A stretch of 26,656 bases of DNA from a virus: the IMG/VR virus record IMGVR_UViG_3300031278_000388, positions 1 to 26,656 of that record. One strand, written 5' to 3'. Below are positions 1,175 to 16,928 of this stretch, piece by piece (the stretch's first letter is position 1; each line of letters opens with the position of its first letter). A program made the position numbers and the translations under genes. The notes under the pieces are model-generated. The model did no database searches, was not told the DNA's origin, and saw only the letters and a list, made by a program, of their open reading frames with translations.

Positions 1175-1759
1175 ATGGAATATCCAAAAGCGATTCAATT
1201 TGCAAATTCATTACTCAGAGAAATTCAACCCTATTGTAGGAAAGTAGAGATCGTCGGGGATATCCGACGCCGATGTAAAGAAGTGAAGTCTATAGAAATT
1301 CTAGCTGTATCACGAGAAGAAGAAGTGTTCAACCTCTTCGGTGAAAGTGTGACAGCTTACTTAATCATTGAGGATTGGGTTCATTCGTGTGGATTGAATT
1401 TTGCCAAGAATGGTGCTAAGTATAAAAATTTCATTTGGAATGGTGATTGGATCAATCTTTATCTGACCAGCCCTTATCAATGGGGATTACATACTCGAAG
1501 AGTGCTTCGCATGGCATTAAGGACGGGTAATCCTCATTATGCTTCATGGCTGGTCACACCCAAGAGAAAAGGCGGTGCGCTGCCAGGGATGATGTGTGTG
1601 AAAGATGAGTGGTTATTGTGCAATAATAAGCAGATTGTCACACAAACAGAAGTTAATTTCTATGAAGCTATTAATGTTGATTGTATCTCGAAGAGTGCTT
1701 CGCAAGACCGGAAGACCGCAACGAGAAAGTATGGGGTAGATGACCGATGTTCACCTTAG
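1175..1759 (+). CDS. DNA polymerase beta-like nucleotidyltransferase fold protein, catalytic residues lost
   Basis: 194 residues starting at an ATG with AAGGGAGG 5 nt upstream. Residues about 25-48 (VEIVGDIRRRCKEVKSIEIL) align by eye with the polymerase X palm motif, normally VxxxGSxRRxxxxxxDxDxL. Here the two metal-binding aspartates are Ser and Glu. The third aspartate (IDI/VDL in active enzymes) appears to be Asn in WINLYL. The region after that (RTGN..YASWLVTPKRKGG..P....VKDEWL) resembles the C-terminal part of phage-borne polymerase-beta-like proteins. It is therefore probably a non-catalytic derivative, perhaps DNA binding or regulatory. Two copies of a short palindromic repeat sit inside the reading frame (1493-1510 and 1687-1703). 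It overlaps the next gene by 13 bp, suggesting co-transcription. Confidence 0.65.
   Translation: MEYPKAIQFANSLLREIQPYCRKVEIVGDIRRRCKEVKSIEILAVSREEEVFNLFGESVTAYLIIEDWVHSCGLNFAKNGAKYKNFIWNGDWINLYLTSPYQWGLHTRRVLRMALRTGNPHYASWLVTPKRKGGALPGMMCVKDEWLLCNNKQIVTQTEVNFYEAINVDCISKSASQDRKTATRKYGVDDRCSP
1493..1510. repeat. Short palindromic repeat inside the polymerase-beta-like gene, copy 1
   Basis: The sequence ACTCGAAGAGTGCTTCGC has a perfect palindromic core (ACTC-GAA-GAGT) followed by CTTCGC. The same unit recurs in intergenic DNA at 5732-5748 and, slightly changed, at 6380-6396, so it is a dispersed element. Here it is read in frame as part of the HTRRVLR segment, between two stretches that look conserved. 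Confidence 0.7.
1687..1703. repeat. Short palindromic repeat inside the polymerase-beta-like gene, copy 2
   Basis: CTCGAAGAGTGCTTCGC, identical over 17 bases to the copy at 1493-1510 without its first A, lies in the last 25 codons of the gene. It encodes part of the SKSASQD segment. The C-terminal tail that follows looks unconserved, so the insertion may have extended or replaced the original terminus. Confidence 0.65.
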
Positions 1760-2352
1760 CCACATTACGAGCATTGAAAGGCGCGCCATTGAGCATTGTC
1801 ATCGCAATGTTGATCGTCAATCAACCTGTAGGAGAAAATTGGTTGTGCAGCATTACGGGTTACAGCCAAAACACCATCCGGAAAGGGTGTCAATTTCTCA
1901 TTGAAACACAAATGATCAGAAGAAATGAACGTTACCATGGTTATGCATTAATAAAAGGCGCCATGCAACTCCCCCTAGGCATGGCAGAGATCGGGGAGCG
2001 TCATAAATTGACGCTCCCCTCAGTTACTACTACTACTGCTTTTAATAGGTATGAAAAAGAAAATAATGAAGAGAATGCAGTAGAAGTAAGAGAGCGAGCG
2101 TCAAAAAATGACACTCGACTTGTTCTACTCTACAGCGCGGGGATCATGGAACCCACAGCTTCAAGATTATTAGAAAATTCTTGGGTTACACAAGACTATC
2201 TTGAGGCTCATATTGAAAAAGCGAATGAAGAAAATACACCAGTTGCATTACTGATACATAGAATTAGATCTCATGACCCTAAACCGAAAAATGGCCTTGG
2301 ATGGAAAAGTCCTGAAAGTTATCGAGAAAGTTGGTTTGGGTCTAAGAATTAA
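1747..2352 (+). CDS. Winged-helix-like protein, possible replication or regulatory protein
   Basis: 201 residues. Residues about 1-65 are predicted helical with a pattern typical of a winged helix: a first helix with LRALKGAP, a recognition-helix candidate (SITGYSQNTIRKGCQFLIE) and a wing (IRRNERYHGYAL). The middle is low-complexity and acidic (TTTTA, then a Glu/Asn-rich stretch). The C-terminal third is a second helical segment (RLLENSWVTQDYLEAHIEKA). I do not recognise a specific family. An HTH followed by a short second domain is common in replication-initiation or repressor proteins of small elements. It overlaps the upstream polymerase-beta-like gene and meets the minus-strand virion operon tail to tail, with overlapping stop codons at 2349-2352. 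Confidence 0.5.
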   Translation: MFTLATLRALKGAPLSIVIAMLIVNQPVGENWLCSITGYSQNTIRKGCQFLIETQMIRRNERYHGYALIKGAMQLPLGMAEIGERHKLTLPSVTTTTAFNRYEKENNEENAVEVRERASKNDTRLVLLYSAGIMEPTASRLLENSWVTQDYLEAHIEKANEENTPVALLIHRIRSHDPKPKNGLGWKSPESYRESWFGSKN

Positions 2353-3887
2353 AGAGACTTTATAATCAACCTATCAAAAGCAGGGAAATATTCTGCGCTT
2401 TCAATGAAGCAAGCGGGGATACGATTGCGGTCCCAGGGCAGACTGACGCGGGTTGTGGCGGCAAGCCTGGCGAAGCGGCCTACGGGCGGCAAGTAAGATG
2501 GAAGCTGAACCTGGTGCTTCGTGAAAAAACGAGATTTTGCGTCAATATAAATATCGGCTTCATCGGGATCTGGCTGTTCGTAGAATTTGAGAAAGCGTTC
2601 TGGTGTGACCGTAGCCAAAACCCATCTTCTATTGGAGGTTCCAACTTTCATCAGCGCTTCGATCTCTTTTAAGCAATTATTCCCATTATTGCGATAGGGT
2701 GAAGTTTGAATATCGGTTGTCAAACCCAGGATTTTCTCAAAGAATTGATCACCAGCAGAAGCGATGCTGGCCATTTGCGACCCGGTATCTGAGAGACAGA
2801 CAAATCGGAAATATAAATCTGGCTTCGTCCCGGGTGAGGTCCCAGAAGGAAGCCGAGACCATGTGGTGGTTGTTTGGTTGTAATAAGCTCCATGTCGCCA
2901 AAGCTGAGGAAAGCTCATATTTTCATCTGTCTTAATGTAAAAATAATTGGACGCGTTGACTGACCAGGGGTTCAACACAACCCAGTAAACAGTATCTGCC
3001 GAAAGAGAAACAGGCGATGAATATGTAAAGCGAATCCAGGTATATTTTGAAGAATTAATCAGAGATGATGAAACAGGATCGGAGGTTGCGAGATGAGTTC
3101 CTGGAACATTAGAAATTTGATTATAAAGTCGAGCAACAATATGAGTTGAGGGGGAGCCCTCAGAACGAAGGCGAAAATAAACATATTTGAGATTGACATT
3201 TGAACCTGGCTTAAAAGACTGACCAACGAAACGATGAGCATTGGAATCGCCAAAGGCAAAAATGCCAGGCCCGGGGCCATAGTTGGCATAGAAGCCATCA
3301 AGGTTTTGGTAATTGAGCCAGGTGAGAGTTTTAAACCAACCGGAGCAATGAAGCTGAGCGTGAACCTCGCCAGACTTGGCGCGCTGGGAAAGCTCAGAGA
3401 AGGGCCAAGCGTGAGCGGAGAGGAAGGTATCCCTTAAAGCATTGGCAAAATCCTCATCAAGATCCATCTCATGAATAACCGTTTCTTTGATCCCAAATTC
3501 TGACTGGGACTGGGGATTATTGATGGGGGTCGTTTCAAGCTGATCTGCAAGTTTGTTATCCGGTGAGATAAAGGAATATGTGACTGTGACTCGGTTGAAA
3601 AGGTTCGCCAAGGATACTTTGACCTGAACATTTTCCAGGAAAATGAGTACCTCATCGACAAAGCCCCACCAAACAGGGGTATTTTGATGATCATGTATCG
3701 TCACTGCGTAACGAAGAGCGGATGTTAATTCCAACAGATTATTGATCTGACCATCAGCGTGAATGACAGCTTGTTCGGGACCGCCAAAGGCGGACCAGCT
3801 CATGCGCTCGGGCAATAAACGGATTGAGGGCAGGAAGGGGCCGGAGAAATCACGGCGGAGAAAAGAAACAAATAGCGTTTGAGTCAC
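2349..3887 (-). CDS. Tail-hub-like virion protein with a choice-of-anchor R-like beta-sandwich insert
   Basis: 512 residues, last gene of the virion operon. Its ATG overlaps the previous stop in an ATGA arrangement, so translation is coupled. Residues about 55-105 (YAVTIHDHQNTPVWWGFVDE, then a NRVTVTYS segment) resemble the beta-barrel of siphovirus tail-hub proteins, and residues about 410-512 (WVLATVTPERFLKFYEQP) look like the continuation of that fold. Between them, about residues 205-365, lies a beta-rich block (GQSFKPGS, IVARLYN, SADTVYWVVLNP, LYFRFV). This block resembles the carbohydrate-binding-like choice-of-anchor R domains. The likely role is at the distal end of the particle, possibly in receptor or glycan binding. 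The assignment rests on pattern recognition only. Confidence 0.5.
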   Translation of the reverse strand: MTQTLFVSFLRRDFSGPFLPSIRLLPERMSWSAFGGPEQAVIHADGQINNLLELTSALRYAVTIHDHQNTPVWWGFVDEVLIFLENVQVKVSLANLFNRVTVTYSFISPDNKLADQLETTPINNPQSQSEFGIKETVIHEMDLDEDFANALRDTFLSAHAWPFSELSQRAKSGEVHAQLHCSGWFKTLTWLNYQNLDGFYANYGPGPGIFAFGDSNAHRFVGQSFKPGSNVNLKYVYFRLRSEGSPSTHIVARLYNQISNVPGTHLATSDPVSSSLINSSKYTWIRFTYSSPVSLSADTVYWVVLNPWSVNASNYFYIKTDENMSFPQLWRHGAYYNQTTTTWSRLPSGTSPGTKPDLYFRFVCLSDTGSQMASIASAGDQFFEKILGLTTDIQTSPYRNNGNNCLKEIEALMKVGTSNRRWVLATVTPERFLKFYEQPDPDEADIYIDAKSRFFTKHQVQLPSYLPPVGRFARLAATTRVSLPWDRNRIPACFIESAEYFPAFDRLIIKSL

Positions 3888-5221
3888 AATAACCTGATGC
3901 GCTTTCGATAGTATGCCCTGAGTGTGGATGTCCGAAGGATATCCACCTGATGAGCGGTATTGGATAGGACAAAGAACAGGCGGTTATATTCCCCTGGGAA
4001 AAGTAATAAGGGTCCGCCCTGGCGAAGGTAGCCAACGGCTTCTGAGCCGATGGTCGGATAGCGAATGTTGTGCTTTTCATAGAAACTGTCATCAACAAGA
4101 ACGGCGTCCTCCATGAGCGTGAAGAAACCAAGAAAGGTGGCTGAGGTGTCCAAAGGGAGTAAGAGAAGGTTATCCACATCGATCTGATGGGTTCCTGATG
4201 CTTGGCGCTGTGCGAAAATGGCAAGATCGATATGGTGCGGAAGGTTTTCGTTGAGCAAAGGCACGGGGGGAATGCGGAGGGGTGGGAAAACAAGGTATTG
4301 ATAAGACGGGTCAGCATAGACGGCTTCGCCTTCCCAAAGGACAAGAGTGCCTTTTAGAAGTTTGGCTTTCAGATAGAGATCGGAATAGGCCTGCGGGTTA
4401 TAAAGGTGCAAGATGGGACGGTAGGCTCGGCCAGAAAATAACTGAACATCAGCATTAGTGAAGGTCCAGGAACCTAAATCCGACCAGGATGTCGCAGACC
4501 AATTGAGCCGACGAAAATATTCATTGATAGCGTTCGGGCTGTAAAGTAAAGATCCGCCCATAAACTCAGGCGCGAGACAAAAGAAAATCTCATGATCGTC
4601 ATTAGTTGGATGATGGTAAAGGCCGGTGAATATATCCTGAACCTCATCGGTATCATACGAATTTTCAAGTTCAAAACGGATGGGCGAAGGGAGAGCGGAG
4701 TCAATATTCTCTGGTTTTATAAGGACTGAGGAATCATGGCCTGCGTGAGCGTCCGTGTGGTTGAAAAGCGGGATGCCGCCTGTGACATCCTCCCCATTGC
4801 GATTGGTAAGAGGCAATTCAATTTGATCCGAGTCAAACCAGTTGGGGCGAGTGAAATGAAGTGTAGCTTGTAAGGAACCGGTATGATGGGTCGTATATCC
4901 GGAAGTGTTGAAGATGAGAAAAGGATTGGTAATGGGGCAATAAAAATAGATCCCGTCAGCTTCGGGTTGAAAACGCAGCATTTGAGGAAAAGGATAGCCG
5001 CCCTGGGCATGAAGAATAGAGCGGGAAATCACATTTTCCAGAAGCGCCAAGGCGGCTGATATTTGAGAGGGCGTGCCCTCTAAATATAAGTCAATCTTAT
5101 CACCTACATAATTTTCCGGACAAGATGAAGGCGCGTAAGCGGCGCGAAGGAAGGGGGCTGACACCGACACGCCATGGATAATCGTCCAGGAGGATATGTC
5201 TCCAATAGCAATCTGGTTCAT
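3884..5221 (-). CDS. Distal-tail-like beta-rich virion protein
   Basis: 445 residues, coupled to both neighbours by 4-bp overlaps. The N-terminal 160 residues follow a pattern I associate with phage proteins near the tail tip: a helix with ISAALALLENVISRSI, a beta strand ending in YFYCPI, then LHFTRPNWFDSDQIELPLTN. The RPxW...LPLTN..G.xVTGG signature is typical of such virion proteins. The remainder is a beta-sandwich-rich region with WSDLGSWTFTNADVQLFSGR, consistent with a jelly-roll. No signal peptide or membrane segment is seen. Position after the adaptor and before the hub-like protein supports a structural role. I cannot assign a named family with certainty. Confidence 0.5.
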   Translation of the reverse strand: MNQIAIGDISSWTIIHGVSVSAPFLRAAYAPSSCPENYVGDKIDLYLEGTPSQISAALALLENVISRSILHAQGGYPFPQMLRFQPEADGIYFYCPITNPFLIFNTSGYTTHHTGSLQATLHFTRPNWFDSDQIELPLTNRNGEDVTGGIPLFNHTDAHAGHDSSVLIKPENIDSALPSPIRFELENSYDTDEVQDIFTGLYHHPTNDDHEIFFCLAPEFMGGSLLYSPNAINEYFRRLNWSATSWSDLGSWTFTNADVQLFSGRAYRPILHLYNPQAYSDLYLKAKLLKGTLVLWEGEAVYADPSYQYLVFPPLRIPPVPLLNENLPHHIDLAIFAQRQASGTHQIDVDNLLLLPLDTSATFLGFFTLMEDAVLVDDSFYEKHNIRYPTIGSEAVGYLRQGGPLLLFPGEYNRLFFVLSNTAHQVDILRTSTLRAYYRKRIRLL

Positions 5222-5634
5222 GACTCATCCCACTCCCATTGAGAATAGGGCACGTCGGAAGAATTCTGATGAATTCGTGCTTTGATCCCTGCAAGGAGGG
5301 TTTGGAAGTGTTTCATCTGTTGCTCGGCCCAGCCGGCAAGGTGATCTGGGCGGTCTTGATCAGGGACGGCGTCATCGAAACGCCCTGAGACATGGAAGGC
5401 GAGGGCGTAAGCCACTGCGCCGGTTATCAGAGCGTGTTCATCCTCAGCTGGGAATGTGGTTTCTACGGCTTCATCGAGGCCGGAGAGGGTGAGAACAGCG
5501 CCAGAGACTCTTGAGATGTCAGATAGAGCGGAGCGGATGGATTCATCCAACAGTGTCAGTGAATAGATAAGGTTGGATGGGTCGGACAGACGGGTTGCGA
5601 GGTGGGTTCGGATGTCTGTGAGGGTTAGGGGCAT
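5218..5634 (-). CDS. Putative head-tail adaptor/connector protein
   Basis: 138 residues, mostly alpha-helical, with an N-terminal LTDIRTHLATRLSD and a following helix LLDESIRSALSDISRV. This arrangement is typical of the four-helix adaptor proteins that sit under the portal. A second helical half (ALITGAVAYALAFHVSGRFDD and AGWAEQQMKHFQTLLAGIKARI) completes the bundle. It lies downstream of portal and capsid and upstream of the tail-type genes, the normal place for a connector, and it overlaps the next start by 4 bp. The ribosome binding site is weak. Function is inferred from size, helicity and order. Confidence 0.5.
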   Translation of the reverse strand: MPLTLTDIRTHLATRLSDPSNLIYSLTLLDESIRSALSDISRVSGAVLTLSGLDEAVETTFPAEDEHALITGAVAYALAFHVSGRFDDAVPDQDRPDHLAGWAEQQMKHFQTLLAGIKARIHQNSSDVPYSQWEWDES

Positions 5635-5652
5635 GGGGACACTTTAGGTATT

Positions 5653-5764
5653 AGGAAAAGATTTTTTCACCACGAAGTACACAAAGAGCACGAAGGATTC
5701 ATTGATGATTGTCACGTGGGCAGCCTGGCGGCTCGAAGAGTGCTTCGCGACTGCCACACGTGAC
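5653..5764. repeat. Composite repeat: CCACGAAG element plus large palindrome with a nested mini-palindrome
   Basis: The intergenic gap 5635-5792 holds AGGAAAAGATTTTTT followed by CACCACGAAGTACACAAAG (about 5652-5697). After that comes an inverted repeat with outer arms GTCACGTG (5711-5718) and CACGTGAC (5757-5764). The loop of the inverted repeat contains a complete copy of the mini-palindrome (5732-5748). The same order is repeated at 6281-6412, on the other side of two small genes. Confidence 0.85.
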
Positions 5765-5792
5765 CTGCACACGCACGGGAATAATAGAATAC

Positions 5793-6035
5793 TTATATTG
5801 TGTCTGGTTTGCTCTTGCGGGCTTTTTTAGGCTTTGGGGGAGCTTCCTGTGGCGGTTCTGGTTTTTCCGCCTCTGGAAGGTCCCTTTTCTGCCAATCCTG
5901 ATGGGTAAAGCGGAATTTTTGACCTGTGGGGCCAATGACACAAAGGGCACCGGTTTCAGGATTGAAGGCGACATCCATGGGGGAACCACCGACAAGATCA
6001 GATATCTGTTTTTGAGTTGGTTGTTTATATGCCAT
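5793..6035 (-). CDS. Small phage protein, proline/lysine-rich C-terminus
   Basis: 80 residues from an ATG preceded by AAGGGG, 5 nt away. A GTG two codons earlier is less likely. The first 45 residues look folded (SDLVGGSPMDVAFNPETGAL, then VIGPTGQKFRFTHQDW). The last 30 are a charged, Pro/Lys-rich tail (EKPEPPQEAPPKPKKARKSK), probably disordered. It starts 3 bp after the holin-like gene, so the two form a pair, bracketed by composite repeats. I do not recognise the family. A small virion or lysis accessory protein is possible. Confidence 0.5.
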   Translation of the reverse strand: MAYKQPTQKQISDLVGGSPMDVAFNPETGALCVIGPTGQKFRFTHQDWQKRDLPEAEKPEPPQEAPPKPKKARKSKPDTI

Positions 6036-6037
6036 GA

Positions 6038-6241
6038 TCACCCCTTGAGTATAGAGTTATGTGAAAGACCATCTTCGATGCCGGTGCCGAGGATGTAGGC
6101 CACCAGGACATAGACCAGGCCGGTGAGCTGTTCTTCAGCGAGGGGGAATTCAGGCTGCCAGGCTTTGATGATGATCAGCACAAGGCCGATGAGGGCGGCC
6201 CAGAATTTACGGGAACTGAGAAGTTGTTTGAGTTTGGACAT
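6038..6241 (-). CDS. Holin-like small membrane protein
   Basis: 67 residues with AGGAG 7 nt before the ATG. A short basic N-terminus (MSKLKQLLSSRKF) precedes a hydrophobic helix (WAALIGLVLIIIKAW), a polar turn (PEFPLAEEQ) and a second hydrophobic segment (LTGLVYVLVAYILGTGI). Two membrane segments in a protein this short, in a phage operon that also encodes a lysozyme, suggest a holin that permeabilises the inner membrane for the GH25 enzyme. No experimentally known holin family is recognised for certain. It is separated from the lysozyme by the portal and capsid genes, which is unusual. Confidence 0.55.
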   Translation of the reverse strand: MSKLKQLLSSRKFWAALIGLVLIIIKAWQPEFPLAEEQLTGLVYVLVAYILGTGIEDGLSHNSILKG

Positions 6242-6269
6242 GGGTTTGCTCCTTAGTTAATAAGAGATC

Positions 6270-6560
6270 AGAAATAGTTTTTCACCACAAAGGACACAAA
6301 GAACACAAGGTTTTAAAGCGAGGGATTGCTTCACTTTGTTCGCAATGACAAGAATTTTTGTCACGTGGGCGGCCTGTTGCTCGAAGAGTGCTACGCGACC
6401 GCCACACATGACCTACGCTTGTGAAGAGGAGAAAAGCAAGGGTTTGCGAAATCATGGGATTGCTTCACTTTGGCAAGCGGCTCCTGCCGCGTTGCACTGC
6501 GCTGATGCGCCTTGAGGGCGCTCAGCTTGTCGCAACCCTCTGACGAGGGCGGGTGACAGG
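6270..6560. repeat. Repeat-filled gap between capsid and holin-like genes
   Basis: The 322 bases from 6242 to 6563 contain no gene. They hold a CCACGAAG-type repeat (about 6281-6310) and a large palindrome with arms GTCACGTG (6360-6367) and CACATGAC (6405-6412) enclosing a mini-palindrome variant (6380-6396). There is also a segment (6505-6531) that matches 24 of 27 bases of a stretch inside the large terminase gene (11421-11447). This is the second half of the pair of composite repeats that brackets 5793-6241. Confidence 0.8.
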
Positions 6561-6563
6561 AAG

Positions 6564-8615
6564 TTAGGCGTCGGCGACATTGTTTTTGTGGAGCGGGCGG
6601 AAGTCGTTCACCCAGACTGCTAGGAAGTGGCGGACTTTGAGACGGTGTTCGTCACTCATGAAGACGGCTGGGGAGAGTTCATCACCAGCGACGTAAATCT
6701 CAGGCATGATGCCGAAACGCTCGCCAACAAAGATTGCAGGGGCAATGAGAGGATCGCAAGCGGCCGCCCAGTCTGAGGGATCAATCCAATCCGGAACGAC
6801 AATCGGAACGGCTGAACCCTTGAGAACATTATCGTAGACATAATCCTGTTCCCGGACGAAATTACCCTGGAGAATTTGAAACGCCGTTTTCTGCAAGGCA
6901 CGAGGGACAAGGCAGAACTTGGGATTGATGGCCAATTTCGGGCCGGTGCCATAATATGTTTCAGCATTCTTGATGAGCATGGGCTGGTCATAAACCGCAT
7001 TGCAGGCTGCGTCCCAAGCGGTTGTTGATAGTTCGTCTGTTAGAAGATTGGCATGGCCACCGGCAGAAGTGACGGCTGTGGCATTAAATAACGCCCCCGT
7101 GTCCGCCATGGTCGGCCCAACCCCTGCATTGGCCGAAAAGATCTCAGCGACGAGCTTTGATATCTTACGCAGTCCTGCAGAGCCCAATTCACGGGCATAG
7201 GCTTTGAGCTTGCGGGTCTCATCACGATCGATCAGTTCGAGGGTGAGGGGGATATACCCACCATACTTGGTGAAGCTGGCCGTCTCGGGTGAGTCACCAA
7301 TCAGCAACTCGGTATAGGGATCGCCCTCTGCCACTACTGGCAGGTCACCCACTGTGCCGATCAGTGTGCCGGTGACATCATGCAGGGTGTTAAAATGCTC
7401 GGTCTGGCTGATGTGTTTCCACCAGTCATACCCTGCACGGCCCAGCATTTCCCAGGTATTGACCACGATCTTGTTGAGGGCGTTCTTGATCAAGCCGGTG
7501 AAATCGGCTGTGGTGGCCAACTGGACACGATCCGGATAATAGCCACCGTGAAGCTCGTGATCACCGGTGAGCATGAGATACAACTCACGAACGCCGGAAA
7601 GCGACGGAACGGTCAGGGGCTTTAGATCATCAGAGCGGGGATTGCCGAACAAATCATCCACCGCGACTTGAAGTTTGTCATGCTCATTGAAGACCAAAGA
7701 AATCCTGCCAGGCCCATTGATGGACTGAGCCGCGGTTAACTCACTGAGCATGGTGCGGGCGTCCTGAACGGCCTCTTGAAGAACTGGGGCTTCGAAAACT
7801 TGCCCTTGAAACTGCTTGCGGATCCGCTCCTGGATTGGCTTGGGGAGATTGGACGCGGACAAGGTTGAATCCAAAAGCATTTCGCACATTTGCAGGCGAA
7901 CCTGACGAGCTTCGGAAAGCACTTGTTCTAATTGTTCCGTATTTTCTTCTAATTTCGAAGAGTCCTTCGCAGGAACAGGAAGTGGGGGATCTTGGAGAGG
8001 TCTGGCTAATTGGACTTCACCAGGCTGCACTTCTTCATGATTTGGGTCTGGATCAGGCTTTGAAATTGGGATATTGGGCAATGTTGGCTGATTTAATTCT
8101 GACATGGGAAAACCTCCATTCATTTGATTCATTGCCCGGAGAAAGGCACCACCCCGGGCAGGGTCATAGACAAGATCAACAGAAATCACACGCAGGATTT
8201 CTCTTACTTTTTTGGCGTTGGATGTGAAAAGAATATCTGCGGAAAAACCAATTTTGGGACGGTCACCCTCACTCTCGGCGAGGATTTGACGCCCGAACTC
8301 GGTCAGTAATTCACCCCCTGGACCAAAGGATTTCAAGGTGGCGCGAATGCCCTGGTTTTCGTCATCCCAAACGGGATTGACAATCTGACCGGCGATATCA
8401 CGCACCGAACGTGAAAACCAGGCATGATCGAGGAAACAATGGGCGCCATCCCAGAGAGAAAGCGATTGTTCAAGAACGTCCGGTGGGAAGGTCCAACCAT
8501 TAGCCTCCCCTGCTGTGATACAGAAGATCTCAAATTCGCCGGTTTTCAGGGGATGGGCGCTGGCTGTGAAACGGGCTTGGTGTTGTGTTAAGTAAACAGC
8601 TTGTGCTTCAGGCAT
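6564..8615 (-). CDS. Prohead protease-major capsid protein fusion
   Basis: 683 residues with a strong AGGAGG 5 nt before the ATG. Residues about 1-165 form a prohead protease-like domain, with candidate catalytic H64 (FLDHAW) and S125 (IGFSAD) and a conserved strand ISVDLVYDPA (144-153). Residues about 165-300 are a proline/glutamate-rich then helical linker (EQVLSEARQVRLQMCEML), which would serve as scaffold. From about residue 300 to the end lies an HK97-type major capsid protein. In most phages protease and capsid are separate genes; here one polypeptide must be self-processed. A copy of the mini-palindrome (7954-7970) lies in the linker. It follows the portal gene and precedes the holin-like gene. 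Confidence 0.8.
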   Translation of the reverse strand: MPEAQAVYLTQHQARFTASAHPLKTGEFEIFCITAGEANGWTFPPDVLEQSLSLWDGAHCFLDHAWFSRSVRDIAGQIVNPVWDDENQGIRATLKSFGPGGELLTEFGRQILAESEGDRPKIGFSADILFTSNAKKVREILRVISVDLVYDPARGGAFLRAMNQMNGGFPMSELNQPTLPNIPISKPDPDPNHEEVQPGEVQLARPLQDPPLPVPAKDSSKLEENTEQLEQVLSEARQVRLQMCEMLLDSTLSASNLPKPIQERIRKQFQGQVFEAPVLQEAVQDARTMLSELTAAQSINGPGRISLVFNEHDKLQVAVDDLFGNPRSDDLKPLTVPSLSGVRELYLMLTGDHELHGGYYPDRVQLATTADFTGLIKNALNKIVVNTWEMLGRAGYDWWKHISQTEHFNTLHDVTGTLIGTVGDLPVVAEGDPYTELLIGDSPETASFTKYGGYIPLTLELIDRDETRKLKAYARELGSAGLRKISKLVAEIFSANAGVGPTMADTGALFNATAVTSAGGHANLLTDELSTTAWDAACNAVYDQPMLIKNAETYYGTGPKLAINPKFCLVPRALQKTAFQILQGNFVREQDYVYDNVLKGSAVPIVVPDWIDPSDWAAACDPLIAPAIFVGERFGIMPEIYVAGDELSPAVFMSDEHRLKVRHFLAVWVNDFRPLHKNNVADA
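7954..7970. repeat. Mini-palindrome inside the protease-capsid linker
   Basis: TTCGAAGAGTCCTTCGC is a variant of the dispersed unit and is read in frame as the AKDSSK segment (about residues 216-221) of the fusion protein. It lies in a proline-rich linker between protease and scaffold, where an insertion would be tolerated. Confidence 0.6.
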
Positions 8616-8633
8616 ATTGCCTCCTAAACGGAA

Positions 8634-10028
8634 TTATTCATTGGTCTCACCCTCATTAGTTTTAACTGTGTCAGGGTTATGGGGCTTAAGATCATTTTTG
8701 GTTTGACGGGTATCTTTTCCGGAGCTTTTAGACAGGATCTCATCGATGTCCGCTGATTCGCCAGCAAACCTATACGAAATTCGGAGTAATTCGCGCTGGT
8801 CAATAAGTCCCATGTCGAATAAACGTTCCAGCATTTTGAGGATATTGACGCCGGCCAGGGCATGAGAAACATTATCACGGGCTGAGAGATCCGCACCAGT
8901 CACGGTGACTTCCCCATGAGACTTGATCGTCTTATCAACCAAGGCGCGACGGGAAATGACCACGTGTAAAAGATCAGAAAGCAACCAGAGAAAGAACTGC
9001 TGACGCTGTTCAAAACGGCGAAAGGTTGGGCCCCCAGCCGCTTCGGCTGTGGTGCGAGTAGAACTCTCTGGTTCGGCTAAGAAGTGAAGGGGTAAGCCCA
9101 CGCTGGCGGCGATCATCTTTTTGAGCGCCAAGCCATCCTGCATGGCGTCGAGGGCTTCCAGTTTGGGTGAGATGACGGACCAGGTCTCGGATTCGTCCGT
9201 GACGAGAATGGAACCCGGCGACGGCGGATTGGCAGCAAGCTCCATCTGACGGGCTTTTCGGGACGCTTCAGAGGTGAACTGGCCGGTGACGACATAGAGA
9301 AAGGCGTTTCTAAACCTGTTGAGGCGGACACGGTCTTCAAGCCAGGCGGAGTAGCGGCGGAGCCAGATGAGCAGGGGCGCGAGATCGGACTCGCCCCACT
9401 GCGCGCCGGCTGGGCGGTTGATGGCATAGTGCAGGACAACGGGCGGGAACTTGCCAGAGCCATCAACTGTGTCCTTGAGATGATCATAAGAAGCATAGGT
9501 GACGGGGTTGAGATCCTGATCTGCTTTGGCAATAAAAATTAACGGCTGTTCGATATCGTTGGGAGAGGCTTCAATTCTATCGATGTTGGATGCCGGCAGA
9601 ATGCGGATGTAGGACATGCCAGACTGATCGGTGCTGATCAAAACAAAGAGATTACCCGTGCGAGTGAGTTCATCACACATTTCAATGACACGGGATTCCA
9701 TGCGGTTGAGACGGTGGTTCCAGAATTGATCGATAAAGGCTTTGGTTTTTTCATCCTGGCACTTGATATCCAGCCCTCCCCCAACGACGTACTGGCTGGT
9801 GAGTTCCACGATGCGGCGGGCAAGGGGATTTTCGCGCCAGGCAGTGAGACACTGCTCGAGGATAGCGGCGCGGTCATATTCGAGGCGGTCACGGTCGGAT
9901 TCGTCGTAGCGACGGGTGCCGATGAGGAAGGTGTTGTCGGTCTCGGTGATCGCGAGCTGATCTCTCACCGTTTTTTCGATAAGTGGAGAGAAGATATTTG
10001 AGAGGAAGCGGGTCAATGGATTGGGCAT
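8634..10028 (-). CDS. Phage portal protein
   Basis: 464 residues, the normal size for a portal. Typical features are the early helix with LTAWRENPLARRIVELTSQY and the strand YVVGGGLDIKC (about 80-90). There is a stem region with YSAWLEDRVRLNRFRNAFLY and a late LKKMIAASVGLPLHFLAEPE followed by the tunnel and clip helices. The C-terminal 40 residues are polar and probably disordered. It forms the dodecameric ring for DNA entry and docks the terminase. The stop is 18 bp before the capsid start. The ribosome binding site is weak. It is separated from terminase by an inserted lysozyme gene. Confidence 0.9.
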   Translation of the reverse strand: MPNPLTRFLSNIFSPLIEKTVRDQLAITETDNTFLIGTRRYDESDRDRLEYDRAAILEQCLTAWRENPLARRIVELTSQYVVGGGLDIKCQDEKTKAFIDQFWNHRLNRMESRVIEMCDELTRTGNLFVLISTDQSGMSYIRILPASNIDRIEASPNDIEQPLIFIAKADQDLNPVTYASYDHLKDTVDGSGKFPPVVLHYAINRPAGAQWGESDLAPLLIWLRRYSAWLEDRVRLNRFRNAFLYVVTGQFTSEASRKARQMELAANPPSPGSILVTDESETWSVISPKLEALDAMQDGLALKKMIAASVGLPLHFLAEPESSTRTTAEAAGGPTFRRFEQRQQFFLWLLSDLLHVVISRRALVDKTIKSHGEVTVTGADLSARDNVSHALAGVNILKMLERLFDMGLIDQRELLRISYRFAGESADIDEILSKSSGKDTRQTKNDLKPHNPDTVKTNEGETNE

Positions 10029-10046
10029 AATAGTATTATTTAATCT

Positions 10047-10110
10047 AAGAGTCCTTTGAATAGGAAAAGATTTTTCAACACGAAGTACACAAAGAACACG
10101 AAGGATTTAA
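10047..10110. repeat. CCACGAAG-type repeat overlapping the lysozyme 3' end
   Basis: A degenerate mini-palindrome remnant (AGAGTCCTTTGAATAGG) runs into AGGAAAAGATTTTTCAACACGAAG and continues as TACACAAAGAACACGAAGG. The same composite order occurs at 10976-11060 and 12717-12778. The last codons of the lysozyme frame lie inside this copy. Confidence 0.8.
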
Positions 10111-10899
10111 GGAGAAGACATCTTCGGGGGAGAGAGATGACAATTTCTTGGGTTCCATTTTGTTTCCGGTGCAGGGGAGGTTGTCGAGGGGACAGGTGAC
10201 ATGGATCATTTCTTGTTGATTGATGTAGCTGAGGACAGCGGCTTTGTCGCCATTCCAGCGGTTGTAGTCCATGTAGTAATTGGCTTTGGCTCCGATGGAC
10301 GCGCCGCGGGCGGCCGTCTGATGGACGAGCCAGGATGTTATTCCTTTGGGCATAGCCGGGGGACAGGCGTGTTCGGGGGTGTGGAGGGGATAAGGCCAAG
10401 GCCAGCGATATTGAGCCAACCACCAGTGAACGGCGGGGAGATCAGCAACCCTCAAGTATTGATTGACCCAACCCGCACGGGAATAGATGATGGGGATGCG
10501 GCTGGTGCGCTCTTGGATGATAGTGAGAGAATCTGCTGTGCATTTTGTGATGCGAGAGACAGTTTGGCCGTGATCCAGTTCCAGATCGAGAACGAGTGGG
10601 GTGACGGCATAATCAATATCCCCAAGAATTCGAAAGAGGTTGTCCATTTGCAACTGCGCGGATTCACCGGGGTAGAGGACGTGATAAGCCAAGCGGACTC
10701 GGCCGATGCGTCCGGCTTCTTGGAAGTAGTAAGCGAACCAGGGGTCCTGATAGCCCCAGGAAATGCCGGCGCGCATGGCAATGAAGACCACTTCGGGGTC
10801 GTGGGCAGCGATGGTGTCGAAGTTGACTTTGGTTTTGCCGTCGGGTGAGGTGTTGTAGCGGGAGAGGTCGATTCCGAAGGCGAGGGCGGTGTTAGGCAT
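10075..10899 (-). CDS. Glycoside hydrolase family 25 lysozyme (endolysin)
   Basis: 274 residues. The ATG at 10899 has AAGGA 7 nt upstream and is preferred to the in-frame start 7 codons earlier. The GH25 barrel is clear: FGIDLSRY with D11 at the first strand, FIAMRAG, YHVLYPG, and the catalytic D-x-E pair in LVLDLELDH (D105, E107). PIIYSRAGWVNQYL, WWLAQY and WLVHQTAARG follow later. It would cleave the beta-1,4 bond between N-acetylmuramic acid and N-acetylglucosamine. There is no signal peptide, so release depends on a holin. The final residues (about FSLNPSCSLCTSC) are encoded by the repeat at 10062-10110, so the natural terminus has probably been altered. The gene lies between terminase and portal, flanked on both sides by direct repeats. 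Confidence 0.9.
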   Translation of the reverse strand: MPNTALAFGIDLSRYNTSPDGKTKVNFDTIAAHDPEVVFIAMRAGISWGYQDPWFAYYFQEAGRIGRVRLAYHVLYPGESAQLQMDNLFRILGDIDYAVTPLVLDLELDHGQTVSRITKCTADSLTIIQERTSRIPIIYSRAGWVNQYLRVADLPAVHWWLAQYRWPWPYPLHTPEHACPPAMPKGITSWLVHQTAARGASIGAKANYYMDYNRWNGDKAAVLSYINQQEMIHVTCPLDNLPCTGNKMEPKKLSSLSPEDVFSLNPSCSLCTSC

Positions 10900-10927
10900 T
10901 TGAGATCCTTTATTAATCAAAAATTAT

Positions 10928-11060
10928 GAAAAGATTTTTAACCACGAAGTACACAAAGGTCACTAAGGAATTAAGGCGAAGCTCTCTTCGAGTAGGAAAA
11001 GATTTTTAACCACAGGCGAAGCCCTCTTCGAGAGGACACAAAGGGCACGAAGAAATTAAA
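10928..11060. repeat. Two tandem CCACGAAG-type repeats with mini-palindromes
   Basis: The gap 10900-11078 holds two copies. The first is GAAAAGATTTTTAACCACGAAG onward (10928-10975), ending in a reverse mini-palindrome (10976-10992). The second begins AGGAAAAGATTTTTAACCACA (about 10993-11013). It is interrupted by another reverse mini-palindrome (11016-11032), after which the repeat resumes with GGACACAAAGGGCACGAAG. This shows directly that the small palindrome can insert into the larger repeat. Confidence 0.85.
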
Positions 11061-11078
11061 GATTTGAAGATACATTGA

Positions 11079-12719
11079 TTAGAATCCTTTCATGTCGTCG
11101 AGGGGGTCGCGGGCTTTGATGATTTCGGATGGGCCAGTGATGGACCAGGGCTGGTCGTCCAGAAGGCTGAGCATAGCGGCTGAGATCATGAGGTCGTCAT
11201 GGATCAGTTTGCCGGACGCGGGGTCTCGTGTGCCGTCGGGGACTGACCAGCGGATTTGTTTCTGGGGGCCGGGGACAATTTCGTACTGGCAATACTCGAG
11301 CTGGCGGAAGTATTCTGTTTGAAGGTCGAGGAGTTCTTGGTTGGCCTGGGACTTCGTCAACATCTCTTGATGTTGACGCTTCGTGTCGGCCGACGACTCA
11401 TGTCGCTCGGCACTTCGCTTATGCGCCTTGATGGCGCTCAACTCGTCCAGGCTATAGTCTTTCATCCGGCCGGAGTCAATCATGGCAAGGAAGGACCAAC
11501 CGAGGGCGGATTTGGTGCGGGCATTGAAGACAAAGGGGATGACTTTGGAGCCTAGAGAACGCGAGAGAAAAGCGGATAAGCCAGCACCCACGCCGGTGGC
11601 GTCCACAACCAGATAGCGGATGCGCCAGGATTCGGCGTAAGCAAGAATCTGAGAATAGATTTTGGTATGCTTGACCCCTACCCATTTTCGACGAAATACA
11701 ACACGATAGGTCGGCAGTAAAAGGCCAGGATCCTCAACGGTTGAGAGATCCACTTCGGCGATGGTGAGCGCGGTGGCGTCACGGGCGGGATTGCTCAAAG
11801 AGCACCCTTTGGGTGAAAGGTTATTGACATCACTCTTGTTTTCATCTTCGCCTGCGACATCCAATGTCATGACATAGATGGGGCCAAGCTGCGGTGTGGA
11901 CTGTGGCGGGTGAATGCCGTAAAGCAATGCAATGCGGGAAGGCGGGAACAAGCCCCCCTGGGCGTCGATATCCTCAGAATAGTACTGGGTCTTGACCATA
12001 GGATGATTTCGGCCCAATTTGGCCACCTGCTCAGCAACGAACTTCCCATAAGCGGGGACTTCCGGGGCGACTTGATCCACGGATAAGCGCCAAACCCGCT
12101 GGATGCCGTCTTGCTCCTGAAGCGATTTAGCGAGGGCATATTCCCTGGCAAGGAGGGTGTTACTCGTCCAGGCCGTGCCCCAAAAGATGCGGGTTGCATT
12201 GGTGCTGGCGGCCATGGGAGCAATATCTTTGTCGAATTTATCGATCTGAATATCCTGCGCCTCATCAATAGATAAGAGGATATTGGCGGTTGCACCCACG
12301 ATGTTGGCTGAGGGGGATCCGGAGAGAAAATAAATGCGAGCCTTACCCACACGAAAGATATAATCATGATGCTTTTCCCACATATCGCGGGTGATGAGGT
12401 TGTTGGACAGGACGCGTTCAATACGGCGCATGGCATTATGGGCTTGAGGATTCCAGGTGGGAGAGACGGAGACCATCTCGGCTTCTAACATAGAAAAGAT
12501 GGTAAGAAGATAAGTTTGAACCTGAGCCTGGAGTTCGTTCTTACCGGACTGGCGGGGAAAAATAACCACAAAGGATAAGCCCCTCTTGTGGACTACCGAA
12601 TCGACAACGGCTTTGGCGGGTTCCAGTTGATATTTGCGCAAGGTAAGGCACGAGCCATAGCGACAGAACTTGGCGACATCCCTGAGAAGCTGCTTGATGT
12701 TATCTTTGAGAGCGGGCAC
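11079..12719 (-). CDS. terL: Terminase large subunit
   Basis: 546 residues with both terminase domains. The ATPase carries Walker A-like PRQSGKN (56-61) and Walker B LSIDEAQD (D152, E153), followed by the coupling segment IFWGTAWTSN. The RNase H-like nuclease has its acidic residues in MTLDVAGED (D287), LVVDATGVG (D373) and IHDDLM (D508/D509). It packages DNA through the portal. The GTG at 12719 is chosen because AAAGGA lies 8 nt upstream. The longer frame begins at a TTG inside a CCACGAAG repeat. Two stretches look like repeat-derived expansions: residues about 292-313 next to the first nuclease Asp, and about 433-456, the latter containing a perfect 9-bp hairpin in the DNA. Confidence 0.92.
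   Translation of the reverse strand: MPALKDNIKQLLRDVAKFCRYGSCLTLRKYQLEPAKAVVDSVVHKRGLSFVVIFPRQSGKNELQAQVQTYLLTIFSMLEAEMVSVSPTWNPQAHNAMRRIERVLSNNLITRDMWEKHHDYIFRVGKARIYFLSGSPSANIVGATANILLSIDEAQDIQIDKFDKDIAPMAASTNATRIFWGTAWTSNTLLAREYALAKSLQEQDGIQRVWRLSVDQVAPEVPAYGKFVAEQVAKLGRNHPMVKTQYYSEDIDAQGGLFPPSRIALLYGIHPPQSTPQLGPIYVMTLDVAGEDENKSDVNNLSPKGCSLSNPARDATALTIAEVDLSTVEDPGLLLPTYRVVFRRKWVGVKHTKIYSQILAYAESWRIRYLVVDATGVGAGLSAFLSRSLGSKVIPFVFNARTKSALGWSFLAMIDSGRMKDYSLDELSAIKAHKRSAERHESSADTKRQHQEMLTKSQANQELLDLQTEYFRQLEYCQYEIVPGPQKQIRWSVPDGTRDPASGKLIHDDLMISAAMLSLLDDQPWSITGPSEIIKARDPLDDMKGF
11356..11447. repeat. Repeat block within terL
   Basis: GTCAACATC (11356-11364) and GATGTTGAC (11369-11377) form a perfect 9-bp stem with a TCTT loop. 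A GTCGG/CCGAC-rich stretch follows, then 11421-11447, which matches the intergenic segment 6505-6531 at 24 of 27 bases. The block is read in frame as a lysine/arginine/histidine-rich stretch (AHKRSAERHESSADTKRQ). Confidence 0.6.
11793..11818. repeat. Palindrome-like insert near the first nuclease aspartate of terL
   Basis: CTCAAAGAGCACCCTTTGGG followed by TGAAAGG resembles the other short palindromic units (CTCAAAGAG arms, CCCTTTGGG core). It encodes the LSPKGCSL segment, between LDVAGED and DATALTIAEV. These two normally lie closer together in terminases. Confidence 0.45.
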
Positions 12720-12778
12720 TCGAAGAGTCCTTTGGATAGGAAAAGATTTTAACCACGATGGACACAAAGGAAAAGAAG
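12717..12778. repeat. Mini-palindrome plus CCACGAAG-type repeat at the terL start
   Basis: CACTCGAAGAGTCCTTTGG (12717-12735) runs into ATAGGAAAAGATTTTAACCA and then CGATGGACACAAAGG. Read on the minus strand, the repeat supplies AAAGGA and, 8 nt later, GTG. It therefore appears to provide the ribosome binding site and start codon of the terminase gene. Confidence 0.75.
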
Positions 12779-12787
12779 AAATTGTGT

Positions 12788-13069
12788 TTAGAAACTGAAA
12801 AAGGACCTGATCAGGGCAACGAGGGACATCAAGCCCGAACCGCCGGACGCCAAACCAGAAAACAACTTGAATTGTGTGACACCCTGGGTGGCGGCACGGA
12901 TGCGAGTTTCATGATCACGGGAAGTCTCTTCGAGGGCGGAGAGGCGGTGATCGGAGATCTCTTTGGTGTGCTTAAGCTTCTCTTCGAGGGCGTCCATGCG
13001 GGCCTTGTAGAGGGTGTTGAGGTGCTTGAGCTGTTCGGCGAGAAGTTGAGAGGAGGGGTCATCACACAT
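12788..13069 (-). CDS. Small coiled-coil protein with a C-terminal membrane segment
   Basis: 93 residues. The start at 13069 overlaps the upstream stop as TGATG, which fixes it. Residues about 10-58 are a heptad-rich helix (SSQLLAEQLKHLNTLYKARM, then KLKHTKEISDHRLSALEE), typical of a coiled coil. Residues about 70-92 are hydrophobic (LFSGLASGGSGLMSLVALIR) and could span the membrane. This resembles small membrane-anchored coiled-coil proteins in other phage operons, sometimes linked to lysis or superinfection exclusion. No family is recognised. It lies between the small-terminase-like gene and terL. Confidence 0.55.
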   Translation of the reverse strand: MCDDPSSQLLAEQLKHLNTLYKARMDALEEKLKHTKEISDHRLSALEETSRDHETRIRAATQGVTQFKLFSGLASGGSGLMSLVALIRSFFSF

Positions 13070-13266
13070 CAAAATGACTCCGCAAGGTTCCATTCTTCCG
13101 TCAGTTCAGAGACAGCAGCTTGAATGCGCTCCATCTCAAAGAGTCCTTCGGAGAAGCGGTCACGAAAAGTGCGTATGGAAGTTTTGAGAGATTGGGATTT
13201 TTTGATGAAATCATCGACATGGGGGGCACTCGAAGAGTGCTTTTCAAGCAGGGTGCATTTAGACAT
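13069..13266 (-). CDS. Small helical phage protein of unknown function
   Basis: 65 residues from an ATG with GGAGG about 9 nt upstream. It overlaps the upstream gene by 8 bp and the downstream start by 1 bp, so the three are translationally linked. It is charged and helical (VDDFIKKSQSLKTSIRTFRD, FEMERIQAAVSELTEEW). A mini-palindrome copy (13228-13245) encodes part of its N-terminal KHSSSAP segment. A longer open frame to 13329 only runs out of frame inside the upstream gene. A packaging-accessory role is conceivable from position, but nothing in the sequence shows it. Confidence 0.5.
   Translation of the reverse strand: MSKCTLLEKHSSSAPHVDDFIKKSQSLKTSIRTFRDRFSEGLFEMERIQAAVSELTEEWNLAESF
13228..13245. 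repeat. Mini-palindrome in a small phage gene
   Basis: ACTCGAAGAGTGCTTTTC is the dispersed unit with its last bases changed. It is preceded by GC, giving a GCACTC/GAGTGC stem. It is read in frame within the first 15 codons of the 65-residue gene. Confidence 0.6.
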
Positions 13267-13819: not shown

Positions 13820-15205
13820 TCACGTCTGATCAATAATATGAGCGAGAAAATCTAAAATAATAAGAACTTTAATCATATAATCTTTTCGACCGTAATATAT
13901 ATTTTCCCCATGCATAATTTTATGACGACTGAATAGAATTTCTTTTTCTGGTACTGCACCTCGGTAAGCTCTTTGAAATAATATATCAAAAGCGAGCTCA
14001 GATGCCAAATCATCTAATAATGACGGCATTGTTTTTGGTTTCAAATCCTTGATTATATCTTTTGGTTTTAATTTATTTCCATTTTTATCTTTAAGCAAAT
14101 CATGTGTTTTTAGATCAATCCAACCGTATTCATTCAGATTCCAGGACAATCCATGCATTTCCAAATAATCACACATTATCCCTTCAATTAAAGTGATTAA
14201 AGTTGGAACAACAACATTTGCAGCATTATTACCTGTTGAATCACAAAACATTATGACGTCAACACAATCAGTGATTATTTTGAATCTTTTTCCACTGAAT
14301 AAAGGAATATCCTCCCAGCTATTGACCATATTTTGCAAATTACTTCTGTGATTTTCTTTAAAATATTCATAAAACAAATAATTTATCTCTCGATGAAGGT
14401 TACTCCCTCCCTTTTCATCAACTTTGACTATTTTATCTAAGAGAGAAAATGGCATACTGGGAGAGAAAAACCAATGATATTTACTAAGTATTTCAACAGC
14501 TCTTTCTTCCGTGATTTTATATTCTTCTTCAAATGACTGCCAGTATTGGCGAAAAGGAGCAAATATTGCATCATGACTATCAAACCAATCAATCAAATAA
14601 TTTACTTGATGTTGAACAGATTCAGTTACGTGTTGGTTTAATGAAGAAATTAATGTTGAGAAGCTTTCTAATGAACTTATAATATCTAAATTTGGAAGAA
14701 TAATACTCTGGGCAATATTAGCGATCCATTCACGTTGAATGTCAACTATAAGATCAATTTGAGGTTGTCTTAAGATTATTGAAGATTTAAGTAATGGCTC
14801 AATTGTTTTCATTAAATTATTAACAAATTTTATATTTGATTGCAATATAGGCGAAACAGTGTTTTGAAGATTTTTTCTAAATTTATTTTCTTCATTAGAA
14901 ATAACTCTAAGAAAGAAATGATAAAAATCCTCACCATCAGAATATTCTAGTTCCGAATCAAAATTGTTATTCAGAAATTTTGAACCCAAATCTTCTAAAT
15001 TGATATCTGAAATTTCCTCGAATTCTTCAAATTCAACGGGTGGGGAAATCATATGATCATAAAGAATCTTCTTTACTCTAGCTTTTTCAGGTAAAGGTAT
15101 ATCTTCATCTTTAGTTAATCTAAAATAATCATCTAGAGAATAAGGTCGCAACCGAATTTCAAGACCTAAAGACTCAATATAAAATTTTTCATTTTCATCA
15201 TTCAT
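13820..15205 (-). CDS. HEPN-motif protein, candidate RNase toxin of the Panacea operon
   Basis: 461 residues if the ATG at 15205 is used. A TTG four codons earlier is possible, and neither has a strong ribosome binding site. The C-terminus carries LFSRHKIMHGE, an R427-x4-H432 motif followed by a long hydrophobic helix (YMIKVLIILDFLAHII). This is the arrangement of HEPN RNases, in which R and H form the active site. The remainder is largely helical with an acidic N-terminal third and aromatic-rich segments (SNEENKFRKNL, HWFFSPSMPFSLLDKIV). No DNA-binding motif or membrane segment is seen. It follows the antitoxin gene by 15 bp and is AT-rich like the antitoxin's C-terminal half. A second toxin or effector is inferred; a regulatory or sensor role is possible. 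Confidence 0.55.
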   Translation of the reverse strand: MNDENEKFYIESLGLEIRLRPYSLDDYFRLTKDEDIPLPEKARVKKILYDHMISPPVEFEEFEEISDINLEDLGSKFLNNNFDSELEYSDGEDFYHFFLRVISNEENKFRKNLQNTVSPILQSNIKFVNNLMKTIEPLLKSSIILRQPQIDLIVDIQREWIANIAQSIILPNLDIISSLESFSTLISSLNQHVTESVQHQVNYLIDWFDSHDAIFAPFRQYWQSFEEEYKITEERAVEILSKYHWFFSPSMPFSLLDKIVKVDEKGGSNLHREINYLFYEYFKENHRSNLQNMVNSWEDIPLFSGKRFKIITDCVDVIMFCDSTGNNAANVVVPTLITLIEGIMCDYLEMHGLSWNLNEYGWIDLKTHDLLKDKNGNKLKPKDIIKDLKPKTMPSLLDDLASELAFDILFQRAYRGAVPEKEILFSRHKIMHGENIYYGRKDYMIKVLIILDFLAHIIDQT

Positions 15206-15220
15206 CGATACATCCAATTA

Positions 15221-16222
15221 TTAAATTTTTAAATCTTTAGCATATTTATAAGAAATACACTGACTTTTGTTTGTCATTAGATATCCTTTTTCTTGATGTG
15301 AAAATTCCTCAATTTCTCCTGATGAAAAATCTTTGAAGAAATCTTTGACGTATCTGATCGTATTCAGTTCATCTAACGAAAACAAATTTAGATTTGGGTC
15401 GCTATTAGAAGTAAACGCTTCACCCAGAAATAAATCAAAGTCGATTTTCTCCGTTTCAAGGATTCCCATCCAATCCGTAAGGGCAGCCAACCATGTCTTA
15501 TATTCATCTGGTACTGGCCCATGGGGAAGATGAACATATTGCATACCGGTTATGGAAGAATTAAATTCTTTATAATGCTTGAAATCCACATAAAAGAATA
15601 ATTTTTGAAGTTTAGTTGTAAATTGACTTGTTTCATGACAAAGAATTTTTGCCACTTCAGAAAATTTATGAAAATCTAAGACTCTACCACCACTTAGGAT
15701 GCTGGCTTCATAAGAACCAAAACGATCAATTGCATCTGACACTAATTGGGGAATACCATTTTGATACTGTTCAATATTTTCATTCAATAGCTTAAGATCT
15801 TGTTCAGAAAAAATCACTTTTTTATTTTTAGCGAACTTCATCAATATCCAAGGATCATTAATGCACAAAGAAATAATCTGGTTGTTTGCTTCGGATTGAA
15901 GCGTGCCATTCTCATAGCGGTTGAGGGTGGCGATGCCAATGCCTAAGAGATCACTGAACTGCTTTTGGGTGAGCCCCAGGCTTTCACGGAACTCTTTGAT
16001 TTCTTCGGGTTGGACCCACCCTTTTCGGCGGCGGTATTCACGATAGGCAGCGGCATAGGGATCGTAATCCTCTTCGAGGACTTCGAACTCTTCGCCACAT
16101 GACGCGCAACGATAGTATTCCCTTTCAACGGGAATGGCGAGATCACGAACTTCCATCTCTTCGGTTTGGGTGATTTTTTCGATTTGTGTTTCTTGTTCGC
16201 AAAATGGACATTTTTTATTCAT
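15221..16222 (-). CDS. Chimeric antitoxin: MqsA-type zinc finger, HTH and Panacea/SocA-like domain
   Basis: 333 residues with AGGTAGGA upstream of the ATG. It has three parts. First is a zinc finger with CPFC (C5, C8) and CASC (C39, C42), as in MqsA/YgiT antitoxins. Second is an XRE-type HTH at about 72-110 (FRESLGLTQKQFSDLLGIG, then NRYENG). Third is a C-terminal region, about 184-295, with KLQKLFFYVDFKHYKEF and HLPHGPVPDEY, which fits the Panacea (DUF4065, SocA-like) antitoxin domain. MqsA proteins normally bind MqsR with the zinc finger and the operator with the HTH. The extra domain could neutralise a second toxin. It lies between an MqsR-family gene and the HEPN-type gene. Base composition changes near codon 110. 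Confidence 0.8.
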   Translation of the reverse strand: MNKKCPFCEQETQIEKITQTEEMEVRDLAIPVEREYYRCASCGEEFEVLEEDYDPYAAAYREYRRRKGWVQPEEIKEFRESLGLTQKQFSDLLGIGIATLNRYENGTLQSEANNQIISLCINDPWILMKFAKNKKVIFSEQDLKLLNENIEQYQNGIPQLVSDAIDRFGSYEASILSGGRVLDFHKFSEVAKILCHETSQFTTKLQKLFFYVDFKHYKEFNSSITGMQYVHLPHGPVPDEYKTWLAALTDWMGILETEKIDFDLFLGEAFTSNSDPNLNLFSLDELNTIRYVKDFFKDFSSGEIEEFSHQEKGYLMTNKSQCISYKYAKDLKI

Positions 16223-16713: not shown

Positions 16714-16787
16714 TATCTTCTTAAGTAAATAATGATATACAATATGTTAATCAATCCATTTAATAAGTTTACTTCGTTTTAACCGGT

Positions 16788-16928
16788 GTCTCATGATGGC
16801 CGGCACTTCGCTGGTGCGGTTTGTCCCCCTGGGCTTCGCTTCGGGGATTGGCAAGATCACTCCAACTCGTCACAGCAAGGAGAATTTGATTTTGTCACGT
16901 GGGCGGCCGTGCGGCCGCCACACGTGAC
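16788..16928. repeat. Hairpin-rich repeats including a large GTCACGTG palindrome
   Basis: The 374 bases between the toxin gene and the next gene (16643-17016) have no frame. After the operators they hold hairpins such as CCGGCACTTCGCTGGTGCGG and CCCCCTGGGCTTCGCTTCGG. These are followed by a large palindrome at 16894-16928 with arms GTCACGTG and CACGTGAC and an inner GGCGGCCG/CGGCCGCC stem. The last is one of six copies in the window. Confidence 0.8.

Follow-up and report, generated by a model that had tools for sequence, protein, structure and literature searches.

The window analysed here, by which we mean the whole stretch of DNA, is the 26,656-base virus record IMGVR_UViG_3300031278_000388. 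Its genes include, by Pfam, an integrase, a capsid protein, a lysin (GH25) and a portal protein, the last resting on a weak match below the cut-off, and terL was assigned via PHROGs and alignment. A short unit recurs in and between these genes: ten copies with no more than three mismatches occur in the 26.7 kb, compared with 0.03 expected (shuffled sequences: mean 0.03, maximum 1). A PolX-like gene and a small gene near 13.2 kb hold two copies each, the protease-capsid gene holds one and another is at the start of terL, the others being intergenic (Table 1). The copies listed in a sequence-only reading of this DNA are all present, and further ones were recovered at 13135 (degenerate) and 10043 (weaker). 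That reading described a 17-mer, which was correct as to the repeat and not as to its length, since alignments with empty sites set it at 18 bp, CTCGAAGAGTSCTTYGSA, a sequence that can be divided into CTC-GAA-GAG and TGC-TTC-GCA, with TCC-TTY-GGA as a variant second half. The intergenic placement it proposed holds for the copies at 5732, 6380, 10976 and 11016, and fails for the copy reported at 12717, which is situated at the terL start (12719).

Table 1. Copies of the 18-bp unit, and one palindromic insert of another repeat family, in the window
Feature	Position	Strand	Remark
Element in PolX-like nucleotidyltransferase gene (1175-1759)	1494..1511	+	WGLH[TRRVLR]MALRTG; homologue comparison
Element in C-terminal tail of PolX-like gene 1175-1759 (ISKSASQ)	1687..1704	+	Pattern match; only a net 3-residue difference to homologues
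Element at apex of larger intergenic palindrome GTCACGTGGGC...	5732..5748	+	
Element, CTACGC loop variant, at apex of second larger palindrome	6380..6396	+	
Element in protease-capsid linker (gene 6564-8615, minus strand), AKDSSK	7954..7971	+	
Degenerate copy (ATCTAAGAGTCCTTTGA) between portal and lysin genes	10043..10059	+	
Intergenic copy adjoining CACGAAGTACACAAAGG repeat	10976..10992	-	
Intergenic copy interrupting AACCAC...ACACAAAGG repeat; L016 without copy	11016..11032	-	
Different palindromic insert in terL (LSAIKAHKRSAERHESSADTKRQHQEMLTKSQ), related to 6462-6531 and 16772-16823	11351..11444	-	Missing from 14 homologues
Element, TCC-TTT-GGA variant, at terL start	12719..12736	+	L016: ATG, without copy
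Diverged copy in small gene 13069-13266 (minus strand)	13135..13152	+	
Element in small gene 13069-13266, EKHSSS; common to L016	13229..13246	+	

Two related phage contigs, L012 and L016, with about 75–87% DNA identity, were used for comparison, L016 being informative for the L012 copies only where it was covered. In gene alignments, both the capsid linker and the lysin gene of L012 contain a clean 18-bp in-frame addition that the window and L016 lack, and a small gene adjoining the holin of L012 carries another (MAY[AKHSSS]KQP) that is absent from the window. In a systematic census of the coding genes, each 18-bp indel found corresponded to the element. In-frame insertion within coding regions, as earlier proposed, is confirmed at 1494, where the copy adds exactly six residues in a conserved motif, and nine of nine homologues from Anaerolineaceae genomes (about 25–36% identity) are without them (WGVIFALRTG type); no relative of the window PolX-like protein was found in PDB, phage records or viral contigs. 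A clean insertion could not be demonstrated at 1687, because the homologues differ there by a net three residues only, in a variable tail. A related copy (PKDSSS) is present near the protease-capsid linker position of the 7954 copy in both L012 and L016, and the 7954 copy is therefore older. At the start of terL, the window reads ...TTCGA-GTG with the element, compared with ATG and no element in L016. The coding strand with the element reads TCCAAAGGACTCTTCGA-GTG, in which the element supplies AAAGGA and the G of the GTG start; it could serve as a ribosome-binding site together with a GTG start replacing ATG, although this role in translation start is inferred.

The unit is not confined to phages. 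A scan of 84,980 species genomes with the 18-mer yielded 21 stretches, several of which are from Anaerolineae (two Brevefilum, two UBA6801 contigs and one Anaerolinea), plus one from Chloroflexi. The Anaerolinea and Centralia Chloroflexi matches look like coding sequence. CTCGAAGAGTCCTTTGG/CTTCGG matches in three genomes (G180, G352 and G157) were rejected as ordinary coding sequence or chance; the same is probably true of most single matches outside Chloroflexota. Brevefilum KA23 (G005) holds 49 copies versus one for a reversed-pattern control, and two further genomes hold eight (G006) and seven (G007) versus none. Copies with at most one mismatch are found in 20 of 147 Anaerolineaceae genomes, and at order level an exact copy exists in only 10 of 400 genomes, some of these being coding sequence, so that the distribution is patchy. 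Anaerolineaceae are the likely host family, the exact host of the phage being inferred from the shared repeat and not shown. The prediction of the sequence-only reading that the unit should recur in host genomes is thus met in the likely host family, where it is far above the control and in frame in one bacterial gene. The phages hold about 19 copies (no more than two mismatches) in 41.5 kb versus 49 in the 3 Mb of Brevefilum KA23, a roughly 30-fold higher density, and 15 more distant phages with related terL have no copies except one degenerate match. All copies were gathered by similarity to the consensus, and variation is accordingly under-sampled. No paper on repeats like these in Anaerolineae was found in the open literature, most subscription journals being outside that search.

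The bacterial gene in question is nadE (NAD synthetase) of the Brevefilum genome G007, in which the unit is read in frame as MPY[AKHSSS]KTSP. The six residues are missing in 30 of 30 NadE homologues of the family, the closest of which has 95% amino-acid identity, and the DNA alignment reveals an exact 18-bp empty site; NadE from PDB is also shorter at this position among the alignments listed. Homologues without the inserted residues, on which the earlier claim of insertion depended, are therefore available for the PolX-like protein (nine), for NadE (30) and, within the phages, in L016 and the window relative to L012. Copies are also associated with transposase genes, which we take to belong to the IS256, IS1380 and IS21 families. 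In IS256-type genes of three genomes, the additions are of 19 bp, occur as filled and empty sites in both directions and shift the frame; the copy in an IS1380-type gene appears frame-breaking, and others are directly upstream of an IS21-type transposase gene (L063, L085). The 18/19-bp unit is found in IS256-type genes at L073, L097 and L055; it rides on insertion sequences, which are a possible vehicle between genomes. Since the IS256 copies are 19 bp long and frame-breaking, the intact genes look like survivors of selection, and 18 bp in working genes versus 19 bp in dispensable ones fits a frame-blind insertion followed by selection. Target-site duplications were looked for and none was seen at the nadE, L012 or IS256 insertion sites; a 1-bp duplication (A-17mer-A) was rejected, as the core in nadE is preceded by G and followed by A.

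The 18 bp can be read as two back-to-back 9-nt triloop mini-hairpins, with one C-GAA-G mini-hairpin per strand. Among 96–97 copies, the stem positions are nearly fixed and the loop positions vary; positions 11 and 17 switch jointly from G-C to C-G (permutation 1e-4 among distinct copies). The second loop, on the lower strand, conforms to GNA in 82 of the 96 copies, and each of the four bases occurs at N. GNA-loop mini-hairpins such as GCGAAGC are extraordinarily stable, melting near 78 °C, and are nuclease-resistant (PMC4686876). The outer pair of the second hairpin is not kept in most bacterial copies, and ViennaRNA with DNA parameters favours a single 5-bp hairpin over the double triloop. 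Against the observed variation this single hairpin (CGAAG-AGTG-CTTCG) fares poorly, losing two pairs out of five, in 27 and 35 of the 96 copies, without compensation. GAA, TTC, AAA and TTT triloops are generally enriched in the three copy-bearing phages and hardly in distant ones, which may be largely the element itself. At 230–330 of L016, several different GAA/TTT-loop mini-hairpins in a row are added at the end of a small gene, before the next start codon.

Many copies are nested in other repeats. The copies at 5732 and 6380 each form the tip of a longer palindrome of the type GTCACGTGGGCGGCC...GACC, which also occurs without the unit at 16891, 17952 and 19223. A 177-bp direct repeat, 90% identical, follows the GTCACGTGGGCGGCC palindrome at 17994–18170 and 19266–19442. 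The copy at 11016 interrupts another repeat, and its site is empty in L016. Bacterial copies are mostly within GTAGGGGC-type palindromes, and those inside larger palindromes may have spread together with them. The palindromic blocks in terL, previously regarded as related to the unit, belong to a different and longer repeat family of about 45–57 bp (GCCATCAAGGCGCATMAGCGAAGTGCC...), with one insert in the window terL and two in that of L016 (about 1540–1600 and 2080–2140), all missing from 14 homologues. In the window, this repeat occurs both in terL (11351–11444) and between genes, the further places being 6462–6531 and 16772–16823. One L016 terL insert is between direct repeats of 12–16 bp, and the second repeat may therefore duplicate its target.

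Repetition, filled and empty sites, in-frame retention, clade restriction and structure-like variation are all observed. From these we consider it probable that we are dealing with a mobile, non-autonomous repeat, 18 bp long, composed of two 9-nt triloop hairpins and spreading via Anaerolineaceae chromosomes, insertion sequences and phages; mobility itself is inferred, and so is present-day activity, which is deduced from the filled/empty polymorphism, no transposition having been observed. Such an element would insert cleanly, adding 18 or 19 bp without target duplication, in either orientation and in any reading frame. As read from its sequence, the 18-mer is free of stop codons in all six frames, so that 18-bp copies in tolerant places of working proteins would survive and be kept, and those of 19 bp would remain in IS genes, which are dispensable. 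The route that we favour, again by inference, runs through an intermediate that is probably single-stranded DNA folded into mini-hairpins; exposure of single strands during replication may account for the enrichment in the phages. That this folded DNA is handled in trans by a host enzyme, one candidate being a Y1/HUH-type transposase, remains a speculative proposal that we would not favour over its negation, and no enzyme has been linked to the element. Y1_Tnp is present in six of six copy-bearing genomes checked, yet also in 116 of 147 family genomes, most of them without copies, and was rejected as a marker since it does not discriminate. In size, the unit may rank with the smallest mobile elements on record. 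The full claim is offered only tentatively, with slightly less than even confidence: that no known mobile element is smaller than this 18-bp unit of two GNA-type DNA mini-hairpins, that it travels within a bacterial family and its phages as single-stranded DNA in folded form, that it adds exactly six residues to proteins, and that it builds a new translation start at terL.

The closest in kind to the unit are the small dispersed repeats (SDRs) of cyanobacteria and the double-hairpin elements of Allomyces. SDRs are cyanobacterial, hairpin-forming repeats of about 21–27 nt that are clade-restricted, nested in other repeats and without clear target duplication, and they have been proposed to be mobile. 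They were reportedly described in Nostoc punctiforme and relatives by Elhai et al. in 2008 (Genome Res 18:1484). By this definition, the unit is likewise a dispersed repeat of ~20 nt with a conserved hairpin structure and nesting in other repeats, but is 18 bp long, occurs in Chloroflexota and phages, and is in frame in conserved genes. Cyanobacterial SDRs are cited in PMC3116915. The Allomyces mitochondrial elements consist of two adjacent hairpins inserted in genes without flanking duplications (PMC2800124). Read as two hairpins, the unit shares all three features, whereas it is found in bacterial and phage DNA rather than fungal mitochondria, and proteins read through the insert. Measured against Allomyces-type compensation, the unit has one compensated pair (G-C/C-G) and variable loops, and in bacterial copies the outer pair of hairpin 2 is poorly conserved. 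For both systems, spread of a short structured RNA copied by reverse transcriptase has been proposed, and short hairpins lacking target duplications would suit such a route here, as argued for Allomyces (PMC2800124). We regard it as unlikely: a search of six copy-bearing genomes (G005, G006, G007, G037, G026, G125) found no RVT_1, which argues against it, although these are drafts in which absence is not proof, and two relatives without copies do have RVT_1. A reverse transcriptase on a phage or plasmid remains possible.

The 18-mer might not be mobile on its own, being merely the apex of larger palindromic repeats with which it spreads or between which it is exchanged by recombination. The nesting of most bacterial copies and of those at 5732 and 6380 is what such a process would leave, but the nadE, PolX-like, lysin and capsid insertions are of exactly 18 bp with no palindrome arms, and the IS256 copies add exactly 19 bp, which makes this explanation improbable. 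Still less credible are protein-binding or signal sites for packaging, partition or regulation selected in the phage lineage: the high density in three related phages and the positions shared in some genes could be so explained, but close relatives carry the unit at differing positions, it is found in both orientations, it is present in bacterial nadE and IS genes as well, and 15 distant relatives have essentially none. Convergent hydrophilic linkers selected at the protein level, suggested by the recurrence of AKHSSS or close variants in several genes, are refuted in practical terms, as identical DNA also yields peptides from other frames (TRRVLR, SKSAS, LEECCA), and its conservation extends to intergenic DNA.

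A mobile 18-bp element can also be set against better-known families. In Rickettsia, the RPE is a palindromic repeat located both between genes and, in frame, within genes for conserved proteins (PMC2229807). The comparison with RPE made in the sequence-only reading is supported as regards behaviour, the unit being in frame in conserved protein genes (nadE, PolX-like, lysin, capsid), and not as regards kinship: RPE is 105–146 bp with a long stem-loop, while the unit is 18 or 19 bp at each resolved site, consists of two mini-hairpins, and is present in phages as well. In REP/REPIN systems, a Y1/HUH enzyme (RAYT) acts on single-stranded hairpins, the REPs being 20–40 bp with a GTAG or CGTC tag at one end (PMC3733652). 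The unit resembles these as a short palindromic repeat that is at times intragenic; neither tag was found in the copy consensus CTCGAAGAGTSCTTYGSA or its flanks. Unlike MITEs, which have the terminal inverted repeats of a parent transposon together with target-site duplications, its ends (CTC...GCA) are not inverted repeats and no duplication is seen. Elements this small cannot accommodate transposase ends in the usual sense, and how they move is therefore an open question. Mobility is nevertheless testable, given the closely related filled and empty sites, the 18/19-bp length pattern, a defined clade and an enriched phage. The unit also shows one way in which short peptides are added to housekeeping and phage structural proteins, and it is a warning that a small in-frame insertion in an Anaerolineaceae protein can be selfish DNA.

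Several other features of the window were noted. Positions 1–40, beside the integrase, resemble a tRNA 3' portion, with CTCATAA as anticodon loop, and are likely the attachment site, no complete tRNA being reported by ARAGORN. The protein encoded at 15221–16222, adjoining the gene at 13820–15217, has MqsA-like, HTH and SocA/Panacea domains and is a probable antitoxin. Between 19381 and 23812, a Type III-like methyltransferase (PADLOC MTase_III) is accompanied by a ResIII helicase that also gives a weak match to a TnsA-like nuclease; together they are probably restriction-modification cargo.
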